This document shows, piece after piece, positions 26,782 through 48,620 of a DNA stretch of 64,000 bases. The stretch lies in NCBI RefSeq assembly GCF_036322625.1, contig NZ_AP027266.1, positions 1,739,001 to 1,803,000 of the forward strand, written 5' to 3'. Made by a program: the position numbers and the translations under genes. Each line of letters starts with the position of its first letter. Position 1 is the first letter of the stretch. This DNA comes from Roseicyclus marinus. GTDB taxonomy: Bacteria; Pseudomonadota; Alphaproteobacteria; Rhodobacterales; Rhodobacteraceae. The notes beneath the pieces were generated by a model, which worked only from the letters and a program-made list of their open reading frames with translations, did no database searches and was not told where the DNA came from.

Positions 26782-28254
26782 TCAACCCTTCTTCTTCGTC
26801 GCCCCGCTGCGGACATGTTTGGACAGCCGCGAGGGGATGGATTTCTTGCGATCCTTGAACGGATTCTGATCCGCCTGTGACCGCATCCAGAGCCGGATCG
26901 GCGTGCCGGGCATGTCGAAATCATCGCGCAACCCGTTGACAAGGTAGCGCGAATAGCTTTCGGGCAGCTTGTCGGGCTGCGAACACATCACCACGAAGCC
27001 GGGCGGCCTTGTCTTGGCCTGCGTCATGTAGCGCAGCCGGATGCGCCGCCCCGAGGGTGCGGGCGGCGGATGCGCCTCGATCATGGCCCCGAGCCAGCGG
27101 TTGAGCTGCGCGGTCGTCACGCGGCGGTTCCAGACCTCATGCGCCTTCAGGATCGCGGCCTGCAACCGGTCCAGCCCCCGCCCCGTCTTGGCCGACACCG
27201 TGACAAGCGGCGCGCCGCGCAGCTGCGGCAGGTGGAGTTCGAACATCTCCTTGAGCGCGCGCAGCTTGTCCTGTTTCTCGTCCTCGAGATCCCATTTGTT
27301 GACCGCGACGACCACGGCGCGCCCCTCGCGCTCGGCCAGATCGGCGATACGCAGATCCTGCGTCTCGAAGGGGATGGCCGCATCGAGCAGCACCACCACG
27401 ACTTCCGCGAATTTGATCGCGCGCAGACCATCGGCGACCGACAGCTTTTCGAGCTTTTCCTGCACCTTGGCCTTTTTGCGCATCCCCGCCGTGTCGAAGA
27501 TGCGCATCGGCGTGCCGTCCCAGGTGAAGGGCACGGCGATGGCATCGCGCGTGATCCCCGCCTCGGGCCCGGTCAAGAGCCGGTCCTGCCCGATGATGCG
27601 ATTGATCAGCGTGGACTTGCCCGCATTGGGCCGCCCCACGATGGCGATCTGCAAGGGACGTGAGGGGGTTATGAGGCGTTCTTCATCCGATGCATCCCCA
27701 TCGGCATCGACATCCACATCCGTCTCCGCCTCTTCGATCGCGGCGAGTTTTTCCTCGGCCGCCTCGATGAGGGGGGCCAGCGCCACGGCCAGTTCGCCCA
27801 TCCCCTCGCCATGTTCGGCCGAAAGCGCGATGGGCTCACCCAGGCCAAGCGCATAGGCTTCCAGAACGCCCGCCTCGCCCTGCCGCCCCTCGGCCTTGTT
27901 CACGCCCAGGATGACGGGCCGCCCCGACCGGCGCAGGATTTCGGCAAACATCTGGTCATTGGGCGTGATCCCCGCCCGCGCATCGATCAGGAAGAGGCTG
28001 GCATCCGCCATCTCGACCGCGCGCTCGGTCAGGCGCCGCATCCGGCCCTGCAGGCTGTCGTCCGTCGCATCCTCGAGCCCCGCGGTGTCCAGCACGGTAA
28101 AGCGCAGATCGCCCAACCGCGCCGCCCCCTCGCGCAGGTCGCGGGTGACGCCGGGTTGGTCATCGACCAGCGCCAGTTTCTTGCCCACCAGCCGGTTGAA
28201 CAGCGTGGATTTGCCGACATTGGGGCGGCCGACGATGGCGAGGGTAAAGCTCAT
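26782..28254 (-). CDS. der: Ribosome-associated GTPase Der (EngA)
   Basis: 490-aa GTPase with two G domains. First: GRPNVGKST (8-16), DTAGLED, NKAEG. Second: GRPNAGKST (about 211-219), [19 protein letters not shown]-terminal KH-like domain follows ([21 protein letters not shown]). Der is essential for 50S subunit maturation. A charged insert rich in Asp/Glu lies between the G domains (about 172-200). The minus-strand start at 28254 is 54 bp downstream of yaiI. Confidence 0.96.
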
Positions 28255-28308
28255 GGGATCAATTCCGGGATGGCGAAGGCGCGCAGATACCGCATGGACC
28301 CGGTTCCA

Positions 28309-28755
28309 TCAAGCCCCGAGCGTTCTGAGCGCCCGGTCGAGCGCCTGCAAAAACGCGCTGCGGTCGGATTTGGAAAAGGGGCGCGGCCCGCCAAGGGTCT
28401 GTCCCTCCAGCCCCCCGCGCAGATCGGCCAGCAGATCGCGGGTGGCCAGCTTGCCGCCGATATTGGCCGCCGTCAGCGCCTCGCCCCGATGCGTCATCAC
28501 CTGCGCCCCCGCCTTGATCGCGCGATCGGCGAGCGGCAGATCGGCGGTGATGACGAGCATCCCCGGCCCCGCCGCCTCCGCGATCAGGTCATCGGCGGCG
28601 TCAAAGGCATCGCCCGCCATGGTCATGGAAATCAGCGGATGATCGGGATGGCGCAGGTATTGGCCCGCGAAGAGCCGCACCGGGGTCTTGTGGCGAAAGG
28701 CGACGGTATAGATCTCCTCCTTCACCGGGCAGGCATCGGCATCGACGAGGATCAT
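28309..28755 (-). CDS. YaiI/YqxD family protein (DUF188)
   Basis: 148-aa protein of the UPF0178 family, with a PIN-like nuclease fold of unknown cellular role. Signatures are MILVDADACPVKEEIY (1-16), DAADDLI, VITADLPLADRAI and HRGEALTAANIG. Its ATG at 28755 overlaps the stop codon of the last of three nine-codon mini-ORFs (ATGA), each carrying a GGAGGGG ribosome-binding site. Translation is therefore likely coupled to the upstream mutarotase-like gene through the mini-ORF chain. Confidence 0.9.
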   Translation of the reverse strand: MILVDADACPVKEEIYTVAFRHKTPVRLFAGQYLRHPDHPLISMTMAGDAFDAADDLIAEAAGPGMLVITADLPLADRAIKAGAQVMTHRGEALTAANIGGKLATRDLLADLRGGLEGQTLGGPRPFSKSDRSAFLQALDRALRTLGA

Positions 28756-28833
28756 GGCCGCCCCTCCGGGTCGAGGATCATGGCCGCCCCTCCGGGTCGA
28801 GAATCATGTCCGCCCCTCCAGTCCGAGGATCAT
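28747..28833 (-). repeat. 26-bp tandem repeat creating three chained nine-codon mini-ORFs
   Basis: Units begin at 28747, 28773 and 28799, with a partial fourth at 28825. On the minus strand each unit holds a GGAGGGG ribosome-binding site and ATGATCCTCG. This yields mini-ORFs 28833-28804 (MILGLEGRT), 28807-28778 and 28781-28752 (both MILDPEGRP), each ending in TGA overlapped by the next ATG. The first ATG overlaps the stop of the mutarotase-like gene and the last stop overlaps the yaiI start. A 26-bp period is exactly what keeps each ATGA overlap. Confidence 0.85.
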
Positions 28834-29867
28834 GGAAAGAATCCCCCGTCGAAAGCCACCGACATATGCACCCCACCCGCTTCGGTCAGGGTCAGCGCAT
28901 CGCCCGCCACCGCGACCTCCACCACCTCCGCCCAGCCCTTGGGGCGGGGCAACGCGACCATGGCGTGGCGGATCACCTGCTCGCCTCCAAGCGGCAGCGC
29001 AGTGGCCACACCCATCGCGGCAAAGGGATTGTCCGACAAGGAGGCCGCAAACCCAAGCCCCCCCGCCGCACATCCATCCTCGATCCCTAGAACGCCCCTG
29101 TGCCGCCCGTTCCAGGGCGAAAACTCCCGGCCCCCATTCGACACCCAAAGCATCGTCACCGGCATCGCCCGCGCGTCTTTCAGCACGACCAGCATGTCGT
29201 CCTCGGCCTCGCGCATCAGGACGCTCCAACCGATCCGCGCGCCCTCCGCCTCCACCAGCGTGCAGAAATCCTCGACCGTCTCGCCCTCGGGATAATGCCG
29301 CAGGTCCCAGTCGCCGCCGCCCTCCCGCGCGAGCATCAGCCCCGGCACGCATTGCCCCAGCGCCCAGAGGTTCCGCCCCTCCCGCTGCGCCACCGGATCG
29401 GTCAGGACCGCGCGCTTGGGCGAAAAGGACAGCCGCCCCCCCGCCGCCATCCGCGCCATCGGGTGATGGGCGAAACTGACCGCGCCCTGCCCGCCCGTCA
29501 CCACGTGGCGTTGATACAGAACCGGTCCCGCGATCCGCAGATGCTTGTCCACCACGGCCCCTTGCACCGGCACGGACAGGCGCAGATGGGCATGGGCCGC
29601 GCCCACCTCCATCACCTCCCAGGGCGCATTGGCCGTTGCCCCGTGGATCGGTCCGCCCGTCACGTCATCGCGTCCAAACGGCATGCACAGGAAATCGCCC
29701 GCCAGCCGCTTGTTGACCTGCGGGATGGCGGGGTCGGCCTGCACCTCCGGCTCGTCGCGCCAGGGCGCGGCATGAAGGATATCTCGCCCCTCCACCCGCC
29801 AGAACGGCAGGTTGCCCACGCTCTCGTCGATGCCAAGCTTGGCCGCCCCATCGGAAAGCGTGATCAC
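28830..29867 (-). CDS. Uncharacterised protein, possible aldose-mutarotase-like fold
   Basis: 345-aa protein without a signal peptide or membrane segments. I do not recognise a named family with certainty. The pattern PFWRVEGRDILH near the start, PFGRDDVTGGPIHGATANAPW (about 92-112) and VSNGGREFSPWNGRHRGVLG (about 262-281) recall galactose mutarotase/aldose-1-epimerase-like beta-sandwich proteins. The GTG start at 29867 overlaps the stop of the upstream aldolase gene (GTGA). Its own stop overlaps the first mini-ORF before yaiI. The operon context suggests sugar or hydroxy-keto-acid metabolism. Confidence 0.6.
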   Translation of the reverse strand: MITLSDGAAKLGIDESVGNLPFWRVEGRDILHAAPWRDEPEVQADPAIPQVNKRLAGDFLCMPFGRDDVTGGPIHGATANAPWEVMEVGAAHAHLRLSVPVQGAVVDKHLRIAGPVLYQRHVVTGGQGAVSFAHHPMARMAAGGRLSFSPKRAVLTDPVAQREGRNLWALGQCVPGLMLAREGGGDWDLRHYPEGETVEDFCTLVEAEGARIGWSVLMREAEDDMLVVLKDARAMPVTMLWVSNGGREFSPWNGRHRGVLGIEDGCAAGGLGFAASLSDNPFAAMGVATALPLGGEQVIRHAMVALPRPKGWAEVVEVAVAGDALTLTEAGGVHMSVAFDGGFFP

Positions 29868-30625
29868 GTCTCGCTCCGCGCAAGGGCCCCCAGCGTTGCC
29901 GTCATCAGCGCCGCATCCGCCCCAAGGCTCAGGAACGTGACGCCCGCCGCCACCATCTCGGCGTTGCGGTCTGGCGGCGCGAAAATGCCCGCCGCCTTGC
30001 CCGCCGCCCGGATCACGCCGATCCCGCGCTTGATCTCCTCCCAGAATTCGGGCGCGGTGGGATTGTCGCGATAGCCCAGATCGGCGGCCAGATCGGCGGG
30101 GCCGAAAAGCACGCAATCCACCCCCTCGACGGCGGCGATCTCGGCGAGATTGTCCAAGGCCGCCCGCGTCTCGGCCTGCACGATCACGCAGATCTCGGCA
30201 TTGGCGCTCGAGGCATAGCCGGGCACCGCTCCATAACCGCTCGCCCGCATCGTGTAGCCGCCATCGCCCCGAATGCCCTCAGGCGGATAAAGACAGGCGC
30301 GCACGGCGGCCCGCGCTTCCTCGGCGCTGTTGACCATGGGCACCATGATTGTTTGCGCGCCCACATCCAGCACCTGTTTCAGGATCCAGTCCTGGTTGCC
30401 CGGCGCGCGCACCACGGCGGGCGTCCCGGTGTTTTCCAGCGTGATGAGCTGCCGCCGGATCATCGCCGGGTCAAAGGGCGCGTGTTCCCCATCGACAAGG
30501 CACCAGTCAAAGCCTGCCCGCCCCGCGATCTCGGTCACGGGTTCGGACCCCAGCGCCAGCCACAGCCCGCGCAACAGCCGCCCCTCGGCCATCGCCTGTT
30601 TCAACACGTTCTTCGGTGCCGGCAT
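29864..30625 (-). CDS. HpcH/HpaI family class II aldolase
   Basis: 253-aa TIM-barrel aldolase acting on 4-hydroxy-2-oxo acids. Metal and substrate residues: DWCLVDGEHAPFD (about 40-52), RAPGND-like RAPGNQDW, IMVPMVNSAEEA, the metal Glu in IVQAETRAALDN and metal Asp in VLFGPADLAADLG. GGGAGGG precedes the ATG. It likely splits a 4-hydroxy-2-oxo acid into pyruvate and an aldehyde. It lies 25 bp downstream of puuD and overlaps the next gene by GTGA. Confidence 0.9.
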   Translation of the reverse strand: MPAPKNVLKQAMAEGRLLRGLWLALGSEPVTEIAGRAGFDWCLVDGEHAPFDPAMIRRQLITLENTGTPAVVRAPGNQDWILKQVLDVGAQTIMVPMVNSAEEARAAVRACLYPPEGIRGDGGYTMRASGYGAVPGYASSANAEICVIVQAETRAALDNLAEIAAVEGVDCVLFGPADLAADLGYRDNPTAPEFWEEIKRGIGVIRAAGKAAGIFAPPDRNAEMVAAGVTFLSLGADAALMTATLGALARSET

Positions 30626-30650
30626 TCCACCCTCCCCTGACCGATGTGTC

Positions 30651-31877
30651 CTAAAGCGCCCCGCCCACGGCCTCGCGGTACCAGCGGCGGATCAGCGCCC
30701 GGTCCTCTTCCGTCAGAAAGGCGAAATTGCCGGGCGGCATCGCATGGCTTGCGCCCGCCTGCAGGTAGATCGCCTGCGCCTGGCCCACGATCAGATCGTC
30801 GCGGTCCAGAACCACGCCACCGGGCGCGGCGGCGAGCCCCGGCATCATCACCTCGGAGGCATGGCAGGACGCGCAATTGCCATAGACCAGATCGGCCACG
30901 GCCGGAAAATCCCCATGCGCCACAAAGCGTTCCAGCCCCGGCGACAGACGCGCCTCCCCCTCCGCCTCCTCGCCCGCCAAGGGCAGGACCGACAGCCAGA
31001 CGATCACCGCGAAAATCGCCGCCGTCGCCCCCCAGGTCCACCAGCGATAGCCGCCGCGCGCATGCATCGTGTTGAAGAAATGCCGGATCGTCACCCCCAT
31101 CAGGAAGACAAGCCCCGCGATGAGCCAGTTCCATTCGCTCGCAAAGGCCAGCGGGTAATGGTTCGACAGCATCAGGAAGATGACAGGCAGCGTCAGGTAA
31201 TTGTTGTGGGTCGAGCGCAGCTTGGCGATCTTGCCGTATTTCGGATCGGGCGTGCGCCCCGCCTTCAGGTCCGCCACAACGATCTTCTGGTTGGGGATGA
31301 TGATCATCGCCACATTGGCCGTCATGATCGTCGCGGTCAGCGCCCCCAGGTGCAACAGCGCCGCACGCCCCGAAAAGACCTGCGTATACCCCCAGGCCAG
31401 CACGACAAGGATGACAAAGAGCAAGACCATCAACAGCGTCGGGTTCTCGCCCAGCTTCGACTTGCACAAGAGATCATAGGCGACCCAGCCCACGACCAGC
31501 GACGCGGCCGATATCGCCACCGCCTGGGCTTGCGACAGCTCCATCACCCGCCAGTCGATCAGGTACATCTCCGCGCCCACCCAGTAGAGCAGCGCCAAAA
31601 GCGCCACCCCCGACAGCCATGTCGCGTAGCTTTCCCATTTGAACCAGGTCAGATGCTCGGGCATCGCGGCAGGGGCCACCATGTATTTCTGGATATGGTA
31701 GAAGCCCCCGCCATGGACCTGCCATTCCTCGCCATCGGCGGGGCCTTGGATGTTGCGGTTCAGACCCAGGTCCAGCGCGATGAAATAGAAACTCGACCCG
31801 ATCCAGGCGATGGCGGTGATCACATGCAGCCAGCGCGCGGCGAATTCTGCCCAATGCAACAGGATCGTGGCGTCCAT
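30651..31877 (-). CDS. puuD: Urate hydroxylase PuuD (membrane urate oxidase with cytochrome c domain)
   Basis: 408-aa protein with about eight membrane helices in residues 10-315 (AWIGSSFYFIALD near 22-34; TMHARGGYRWWTWG near 268-281) and a C-terminal cytochrome c domain with heme motif CASCH (about 344-348) and distal Met in HAMPPGNFAFL. PuuD oxidises urate to 5-hydroxyisourate with electrons leaving via the heme domain. No other purine-ring genes are adjacent, although the divergent ABC operon and a distant dihydropyrimidinase-like gene exist. GAGGGA precedes the start. Confidence 0.92.
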   Translation of the reverse strand: MDATILLHWAEFAARWLHVITAIAWIGSSFYFIALDLGLNRNIQGPADGEEWQVHGGGFYHIQKYMVAPAAMPEHLTWFKWESYATWLSGVALLALLYWVGAEMYLIDWRVMELSQAQAVAISAASLVVGWVAYDLLCKSKLGENPTLLMVLLFVILVVLAWGYTQVFSGRAALLHLGALTATIMTANVAMIIIPNQKIVVADLKAGRTPDPKYGKIAKLRSTHNNYLTLPVIFLMLSNHYPLAFASEWNWLIAGLVFLMGVTIRHFFNTMHARGGYRWWTWGATAAIFAVIVWLSVLPLAGEEAEGEARLSPGLERFVAHGDFPAVADLVYGNCASCHASEVMMPGLAAAPGGVVLDRDDLIVGQAQAIYLQAGASHAMPPGNFAFLTEEDRALIRRWYREAVGGAL

Positions 31878-47546: not shown

Positions 47547-48620
47547 CTACAGACAACCCGCCAGTGTTGTCGCCAGCCCGCGCATCATGGCCGGGTAAAG
47601 CGCCGATCCCGGTTCCAGCGCCGTGCCCAAAGGATCGAGAACGGCGGTCCTGGCCTCGGTGCCCTCCATCACCACGGCGACGATGCCGGGGTTGAACTGG
47701 GGCTCGGACAGGACGCAGGCGATCCCTTCTTCGGCCACGCGGGCCTGGATCTCGGCGATCCGCGCGGGGCTCGGGTCCGTCGCATCCGACAGCGAAATCG
47801 CGCCAGAGGCCGGGAAATCAAAAGCCGCCTCGAAATACTGGTAGGCGTCGTGGAACACGACGAACCGCCCGCCGCGCACCGGATCAAGGATCGCCCCGAT
47901 CTCGGTTTCCAAGGCACCCAGCTCGGCCTTGCCCGCGGCGGCATTGGCGAAATAGGCCCCCGCATTGGCCGGATCCGCCGCAGACAACCGCGCCGCGATC
48001 AGGTCGAGCCAAAGGGCGGCATTGGCAGGCGACAGCCAGACATGCGGGTCATTGGCCCCATGGCCATGGTCGTCATGGGCATGCTCTTCGTGGCCATGGT
48101 CGTCATGTGCGTGACCGTCGTGGCCATGGTCATCATGACCATGCTCGCCATGTCCGTGGTCATCATGGCCATGCTCGCCATGCCCATGGTCCTCGTGCCC
48201 GTGGTCATCATGACCGTGCTCGCCATGACCGTGCGCGTCATGCCCATGCACATGCGCCTCGAACAGCGCGCCTTCGCGGAAGGGCAACAGAACCGTGCCC
48301 TCCGCCTGCATCAGCGTCAGTTGCGCCGCACCGCCTGCCAGCGTCTCGACCGCATCCTGCATCCAGGGCGTCAGTTCGGGGCCGACCCAGACCACGACAT
48401 CGGCCTCCTGCAAAAGCGCCGCCTCGGAGGGGCGGAGGTTGTATTCATGCGGCGAAGCGCCTGGCTGCAGGATCAATCCCGGCTCCCCCACCCCGTCCAT
48501 CACGCGGGCCACCAGCGAATGGACAGGCGCGATATCGACGGCCACGCGCGGCACCTCGGCCATCGCCGTCCCCGACAAAAGCATGGCGGCAACGGACAGG
48601 GAAAACAGCTTTCTGGACAT
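47547..48620 (-). CDS. znuA: Zinc ABC transporter substrate-binding protein ZnuA with His-rich loop
   Basis: 357-aa cluster A-I (metal-binding) solute receptor. Signal peptide 1-21. Zinc ligands expected in VHSLVARVM, DPHVWLSPANA and VVFHDAYQYFE. Residues about 122-190 are a His/Asp/Gly/Glu-rich loop of some 70 residues, mostly HGHDDHGHGEHG-like, which collects zinc. It is longer than in many ZnuA proteins. Divergent from zur with candidate Zur boxes between them. Confidence 0.95.
   Translation of the reverse strand: MSRKLFSLSVAAMLLSGTAMAEVPRVAVDIAPVHSLVARVMDGVGEPGLILQPGASPHEYNLRPSEAALLQEADVVVWVGPELTPWMQDAVETLAGGAAQLTLMQAEGTVLLPFREGALFEAHVHGHDAHGHGEHGHDDHGHEDHGHGEHGHDDHGHGEHGHDDHGHDGHAHDDHGHEEHAHDDHGHGANDPHVWLSPANAALWLDLIAARLSAADPANAGAYFANAAAGKAELGALETEIGAILDPVRGGRFVVFHDAYQYFEAAFDFPASGAISLSDATDPSPARIAEIQARVAEEGIACVLSEPQFNPGIVAVVMEGTEARTAVLDPLGTALEPGSALYPAMMRGLATTLAGCL

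Follow-up and report, generated by a model that had tools for sequence, protein, structure and literature searches.

Between a mutarotase-like gene and yaiI of Roseicyclus marinus lies an array of three imperfect 26-bp repeats (28756-28833, minus strand), given here in coordinates of the window, the whole 64,000-nucleotide stretch of DNA that was analysed. On balance, we consider it probable that a 26-bp termination-reinitiation module has undergone tandem expansion specifically at this locus, and that it keeps coupling across the insert and gives yaiI a strong Shine-Dalgarno sequence. Every unit is a nine-codon ORF with GGAGGGG inside it, and its TGA overlaps the next ATG as ATGA. From the mutarotase-like gene to yaiI there are four -4 junctions in succession, each within the overlaps (-4, -1 or -8) by which a termination-reinitiation pair is recognized. 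All features are on the minus strand. Unit 1 (28808-28833; 26 bp, ATGATCCTCGGACTGGAGGGGCGGAC) contains the mini-ORF MILGLEGRT (28804-28833 including the stop), while unit 2 (28782-28807; 26 bp, ATGATTCTCGACCCGGAGGGGCGGCC) and unit 3 (28756-28781; 26 bp, ATGATCCTCGACCCGGAGGGGCGGCC) both encode MILDPEGRP, at 28778-28807 and 28752-28781 with their stops. The Shine-Dalgarno-like GGAGGGG of unit 1 (28813-28819) precedes the start of unit 2 with a predicted duplex energy of -9.8 kcal/mol, and those of unit 2 (28787-28793, ahead of unit 3) and unit 3 (28761-28767, ahead of yaiI) are each predicted at -10.0 kcal/mol. These energies are for ViennaRNA duplexes with ACCUCCUUU. The ACCTCC-bearing 16S-like tail has one occurrence in the genome and is presumed, from its motif, to be that of 16S rRNA; an Rfam SSU search of the genome gave no match.

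An earlier note on this DNA had described three coupled nine-codon mini-ORFs formed by a 26-bp tandem repeat and linking the mutarotase-like stop to the yaiI start. Our reading confirms this chain as an unbroken start-stop relay. When 52 positions were compared at one lag, 48 matched, against a maximum of 34 across 300 dinucleotide shuffles of the surrounding 2 kb, and TRF reported 28746-28835 with a period of 26, 3.5 copies and 89% matches. Units 2 and 3 are identical at 25 of 26 positions, unit 1 differs from them at 5 and 4 positions, respectively, and the single unit closest to unit 1 is that of Roseicyclus marinus CCMM001 (24/26 identical). The sequence that the earlier note had attributed to the start of unit 2 was misread, as this unit begins ATGATTCTCG and not ATGATCCTCG. 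Nor is a period of 26 required, as had been claimed: the ATGA overlap persists at every period equal to 2 modulo 3, provided that no stop falls within the unit, so that 26 is not special, and relays of 8 bp (L008) and 11 bp (L014) occur in relatives. The first 10 bases of each unit copy the yaiI start, and the corresponding first 10 bases of yaiI itself form a fourth, partial copy. Compared by eye, the unit's Shine-Dalgarno half matched neither the end of the mutarotase-like gene nor early yaiI.

The array belongs to a minus-strand block (28309-30625) that consists of an HpcH/HpaI aldolase gene, a gene for a 345-aa protein, the array and yaiI, followed by der at 26782-28254. The yaiI gene (28309-28755, minus strand, 148 aa) has its ATG at 28755, directly after unit 3, and its product passes the curated cut-off for membership in the YaiI/YqxD family (DUF188; NCBIfam NF001095, Pfam PF02639 at 5.5e-37). 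The upstream gene (28830-29867, minus strand) has a GTG start, which is overlapped by the aldolase TGA, and a stop (28832-28830) that overlaps the ATG of unit 1. Its 345-aa product has no match in Pfam, NCBIfam or PDB sequences. The mutarotase-like label that it had been given earlier is nevertheless reasonable at the level of fold, because the predicted model (mean pLDDT 77) best matches galactose mutarotases and aldose epimerases (E 1e-10, TM about 0.56). The region was also checked for a sigma-70-type promoter or terminator, and neither found support. The genome is a single 3.55-Mb contig, and its nearest named relative is R. marinus CCMM001, with a YaiI identity of 98%.

The earlier note had suggested that repeat number be compared among strains; the comparison made here is between related species, one genome each, and across these the number does differ, from 0 to 3 units. 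The yaiI gene was present in 12 of the 13 genomes in the genus sample, and 11 had a readable junction, with G009 (contig ends within yaiI) and G010 (no match) dropped. The counts were 3, 2, 1, 1, 1, 1, 0, 0, 0, 0 and 0: three units in the window, two in L005, and one each in L002, L006, L007 and L003, the last with an additional off-length 28-bp copy. The loci with no unit are themselves varied. L008 has a three-codon relay (GTGACCCGATGA), L091 and L092 have a direct ATGA junction, L013 has a direct TTGA and L012 has an in-frame extension; in L012, L013 and L092 the mutarotase-like gene was also undetected in the stretch searched. Copy number can differ between near relatives, as the window has three units and L002 has one while their YaiI proteins are 98% identical. 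L007, with one unit, and L091, with none and a clean ATGA junction, are sisters (support 99) that differ by exactly one 26-bp unit, as would be expected if a unit had been lost or gained between short ATGATTCT repeats. The simplest history may be a single gain at the base of the genus followed by losses and expansions, but this is tentative because support for the other branches of the genus tree is weak (45 to 69 along the backbone).

Among the nine units of six genomes, the ATGA and the Shine-Dalgarno core are best conserved, rather than the peptide. ATGA is invariant at all nine starts, as are T8, G10 and AGGGGC, and there is no internal stop in any unit. Invariant columns account for 9 of 11 positions in ATGA and GGAGGGG versus 3 of 15 elsewhere (Fisher p 0.0027, with columns picked after the sequence was seen and units related by descent). 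The third base of GGG, a four-fold degenerate position, is constant in all nine units, while the mini-ORF peptides vary (MILGLEGRT, MSVEPEGRA, MILAPKGRL and others). The units give yaiI a strong predicted Shine-Dalgarno sequence that is missing in most relatives without units. In five of the six unit-bearing genomes the predicted energy ahead of yaiI is -9.8 to -10.0 kcal/mol, with L003 at -7.6; at 13 unit-less loci it is -2.5 to -7.3 kcal/mol, the values for L011, L037 and L038 having been taken at an internal GTG or TTG. This comparison omits L004, where the measured position is not a start codon, and L024 is described separately below.

Coupling at this junction extends beyond the units. 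In the window's family, all 52 loci with a close upstream gene, that is, a same-strand ORF of at least 230 codons ending within 150 nt of yaiI, have an unbroken stop-start path into yaiI, and outside the family 10 of 25 do. The survey placed 110 distinct loci, near-identical duplicates having first been removed, of which 33 had no qualifying upstream ORF; L004, which carries a Maritalea name, was counted in the family by tree position. Forty-four of the family paths enter yaiI in frame from an overlapping start, and eight run through mini-ORFs (the window, L002, L005, L006, L007, L008, L014 and L024). Outside the family, L035 has a four-codon relay. In L024, from another genus, there is a single 26-nt nine-codon relay before yaiI, upstream of position 2501. 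Its mini-ORF matches the best unit at 13 of the 22 bases after ATGA (shuffle p 0.009) and has a poor Shine-Dalgarno sequence (-1.7), a resemblance that is only suggestive of homology to the array unit. Another genus has yaiI in 13 of 13 genomes, and in the 13 loci read the upstream stop and the yaiI core are separated by distances that differ in multiples of three. These include a 24-bp array, about 5.6 copies long, at the same junction (L016:2338-2475, the same sequence as L214), which was among the loci left out of the survey. Its period is a multiple of three, and it therefore enters yaiI in frame, beginning at a TTG that overlaps the upstream stop and forming an N-terminal extension of repeats, which may suggest that the junction tolerates only insertions that keep coupling.

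An intact relay is in itself weak evidence of selection inside the unit, since spacers shuffled at fixed length usually keep a path. One was kept in 86-96% of shuffles for the four 22-nt spacers (L002, L006, L007 and L024), in 100% for L008, in 99% for L014 and in 60% for the three units of the window; for L005 one was kept in only 7%. The reason is that yaiI starts with ATGAT and that stops are rare in GC-rich spacers. The case for selection on the unit interior, as read from intact relays, is weakened by these results; stronger evidence comes from the conservation of the ATGA and Shine-Dalgarno columns and from coupling throughout the family.

In each unit, a start codon overlapping the stop before it is followed by six open codons, then by a strong Shine-Dalgarno sequence and a stop overlapping the next start. 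We infer that ribosomes finishing the mutarotase-like gene would restart at unit 1, translate nine codons and stop, then restart at unit 2, at unit 3 and finally at yaiI. In E. coli and Haloferax reporters, according to the available part of one study, reinitiation is almost lost across gaps of about 20 nt and needs no more than the final 15 nt of the upstream gene, although other studies cited there report reinitiation across long gaps (PMC10666635). If the gap effect holds here, a simple insertion of 78 bp would be expected to uncouple yaiI, and a chain of mini-ORFs would not necessarily do so, so that coupling would outlast 78 bp of inserted DNA otherwise expected to break it. The role of the Shine-Dalgarno sequence at overlapping junctions differs from gene to gene, as far as the accessible text of PMC6728339 indicates. 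We also infer that slippage or recombination between the repeats is the probable cause of changes in copy number, and such change looks largely tolerated because gain or loss of a whole unit keeps each ATGA junction. It is doubtful, though conceivable, that the array is a copy-number-variable relay, in which whole modules, each preserving operon coupling, come and go by slippage and 0 to 3 steps set the fraction of ribosomes leaving the mutarotase-like gene that reach yaiI. If so, a dose series would exist naturally among the species of a single genus.

The repeats could instead be neutral, with translation of yaiI initiated de novo at the last GGAGGGG and the upstream mini-ORFs an unused by-product of tandem duplication. 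We regard this as possible, though less probable than an expanded reinitiation module. The last unit alone gives the predicted -10.0 kcal/mol, one-unit relays mostly survive shuffling, and five of the 11 genus genomes have no unit, which counts against a relay function. Mini-ORF relays also occur about as often as chance predicts in the quarter of the genome that was sampled (864 kb, home-made gene calls): of 172 same-strand gaps measuring 4-150 nt, 15 carried one, versus 14.3 (sd 2.3) in 100 shuffles. However, neutrality accounts poorly for the invariant ATGA at nine unit starts, the lack of internal stops, and the path from upstream stop to yaiI that is retained in 52 of 52 family loci. An adaptive rheostat, in which more units raise or lower yaiI translation and the changes are selected, appears unlikely. 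It would fit the difference in copy number between the window and L002, and in Mycobacterium tuberculosis longer repeats before fpg1 accompanied more mRNA, but in the part of that report available the effect is at the mRNA level and reinitiation is not demonstrated as its cause (PMC2734929).

The three GGAGGGG motifs, with their regular spacing, might also suggest a regulatory RNA or a protein-binding site (e.g. repeated GGA motifs), or the nine-residue peptides might themselves act. This is quite improbable: an Rfam search of 27000-31000 gave no match, the array region folds no better than its shuffles (z 0.83), and the variation of the peptides between units leaves a functional peptide without support. 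An assembly or sequencing artefact is hardly credible, even with one genome per species as the basis. Assembly error is unlikely because the units differ from one another, unit 1 departing from both others, and because relatives carry related units, with 26-bp units in five other genus genomes, one of them having two copies; furthermore, the assembly consists of one contig, and 78 bp is a short stretch.

The earlier note had taken the layout to be undescribed, but mycobacterial interspersed repetitive units (MIRUs) are a close precedent, the closest one identified, and the array resembles these known repeats. MIRUs insert at start codons in such a way that an ORF within the unit is coupled at -4 nt to the gene at that site (PMC12548453, a review available in part). 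Those of senX3-regX3 comprise three 77-bp units in one strain and two 77-bp units plus one of 53 bp in another, according to the portion of PMC4213456 at hand. Like the array, they are tandem units between same-strand genes with a variable copy number (PMC12548453, PMC4213456; both in part), and their 77- and 53-bp lengths are, like 26, equal to 2 modulo 3. The array shares the internal ORF coupled at -4 to the flanking gene, as the review defines it, and also the variable copy number, here between species (0 to 3 in 11 readable genus genomes). It differs in unit size and dispersal. The excerpted text of PMC2734929 gives MIRUs a unit size of 40-100 bp and 41 places in H37Rv, and they are dispersed and thought mobile, while the array unit is 26 bp and was found only before yaiI, by a pattern that diverged units would escape. 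Judged against descriptions of MIRUs, not their sequences, the array unit is further set apart by its strong Shine-Dalgarno sequence and its copy of the downstream gene's first 10 bases. In the repeat region of M. tuberculosis fpg1, variable repeats likewise lie at an operon junction and end at a start codon, but the units are 55 and 79 bp, the proposed mechanism is transcriptional and the available part of the paper describes no mini-ORF chain (PMC2734929). Natural overlapping gene pairs have the same ATGA junction, often with a Shine-Dalgarno sequence within the upstream ORF (PMC6728339, in part). What distinguishes the array from such pairs is the three nine-codon ORFs interposed in tandem. 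Bicistronic design, as first published, reportedly used a short upstream ORF with an internal ribosome binding site. The nfORF, in the accessible text of PMC13255528, similarly puts a short ORF, which has a strong ribosome binding site inside it next to the stop, ahead of a target gene, but both designs are engineered and single while the array is natural and repeated. In a search of open-licence literature, none of the papers among the matches listed dealt with a tandem array of mini-ORFs, either in Roseicyclus or ahead of yaiI.

If translated as proposed, the array would be a compact natural test of serial terminations and restarts by the bacterial ribosome, nine codons apart. Related species supply 0, 1, 2 and 3 steps at one junction, from which the loss per step would be measurable. 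It would also illustrate how the gap between two genes of a coupled operon can lengthen while coupling is preserved, and by a different route from that of dispersed elements of the MIRU type.

A dispersed MIRU-like family was not found with the unit pattern used, which diverged units would escape, including those of G003 and G007. Within one mismatch, this pattern had 22 matches in 13 genus genomes, 7 of them at the yaiI array; none of the other 15 had DTGA 26 bp upstream, and their identity to the unit was 12-17/26. A screen of 864 kb of this genome, in 41 stretches that include the window, gave 1,512 short ORFs bounded by DTGA at both ends, and the only successive, highly similar units among them are those of the yaiI array, the next best being a 17-bp pair at 0.71. 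A similar screen of 121 relatives' loci (558,601 bases) returned as chains the yaiI arrays of L005 and L003 and a 17-bp pair in L051. Other kinds of tandem repeat were seen as well. A 300-bp repeat occurs in about 44 copies at L202:6580-19901 (G000:C1:1706580-1719901) and, with a similar consensus unit, in 2.1 copies at 303-932 of the window; possibly this is one giant repetitive surface or adhesin-like gene. The window also has a 15-bp repeat at 48059-48248 (12.7 copies, 70% matches), and a 58-bp repeat (2.9 copies, 99% matches) lies at the edge of a called ORF at L200:15107-15273. Finally, L184:4345-4411 and L203:4327-4393 each have about 2.5 copies of a 27-bp repeat, with similar GGGCARAGCCCCC motifs at the two places, and these are perhaps a dispersed intergenic repeat.
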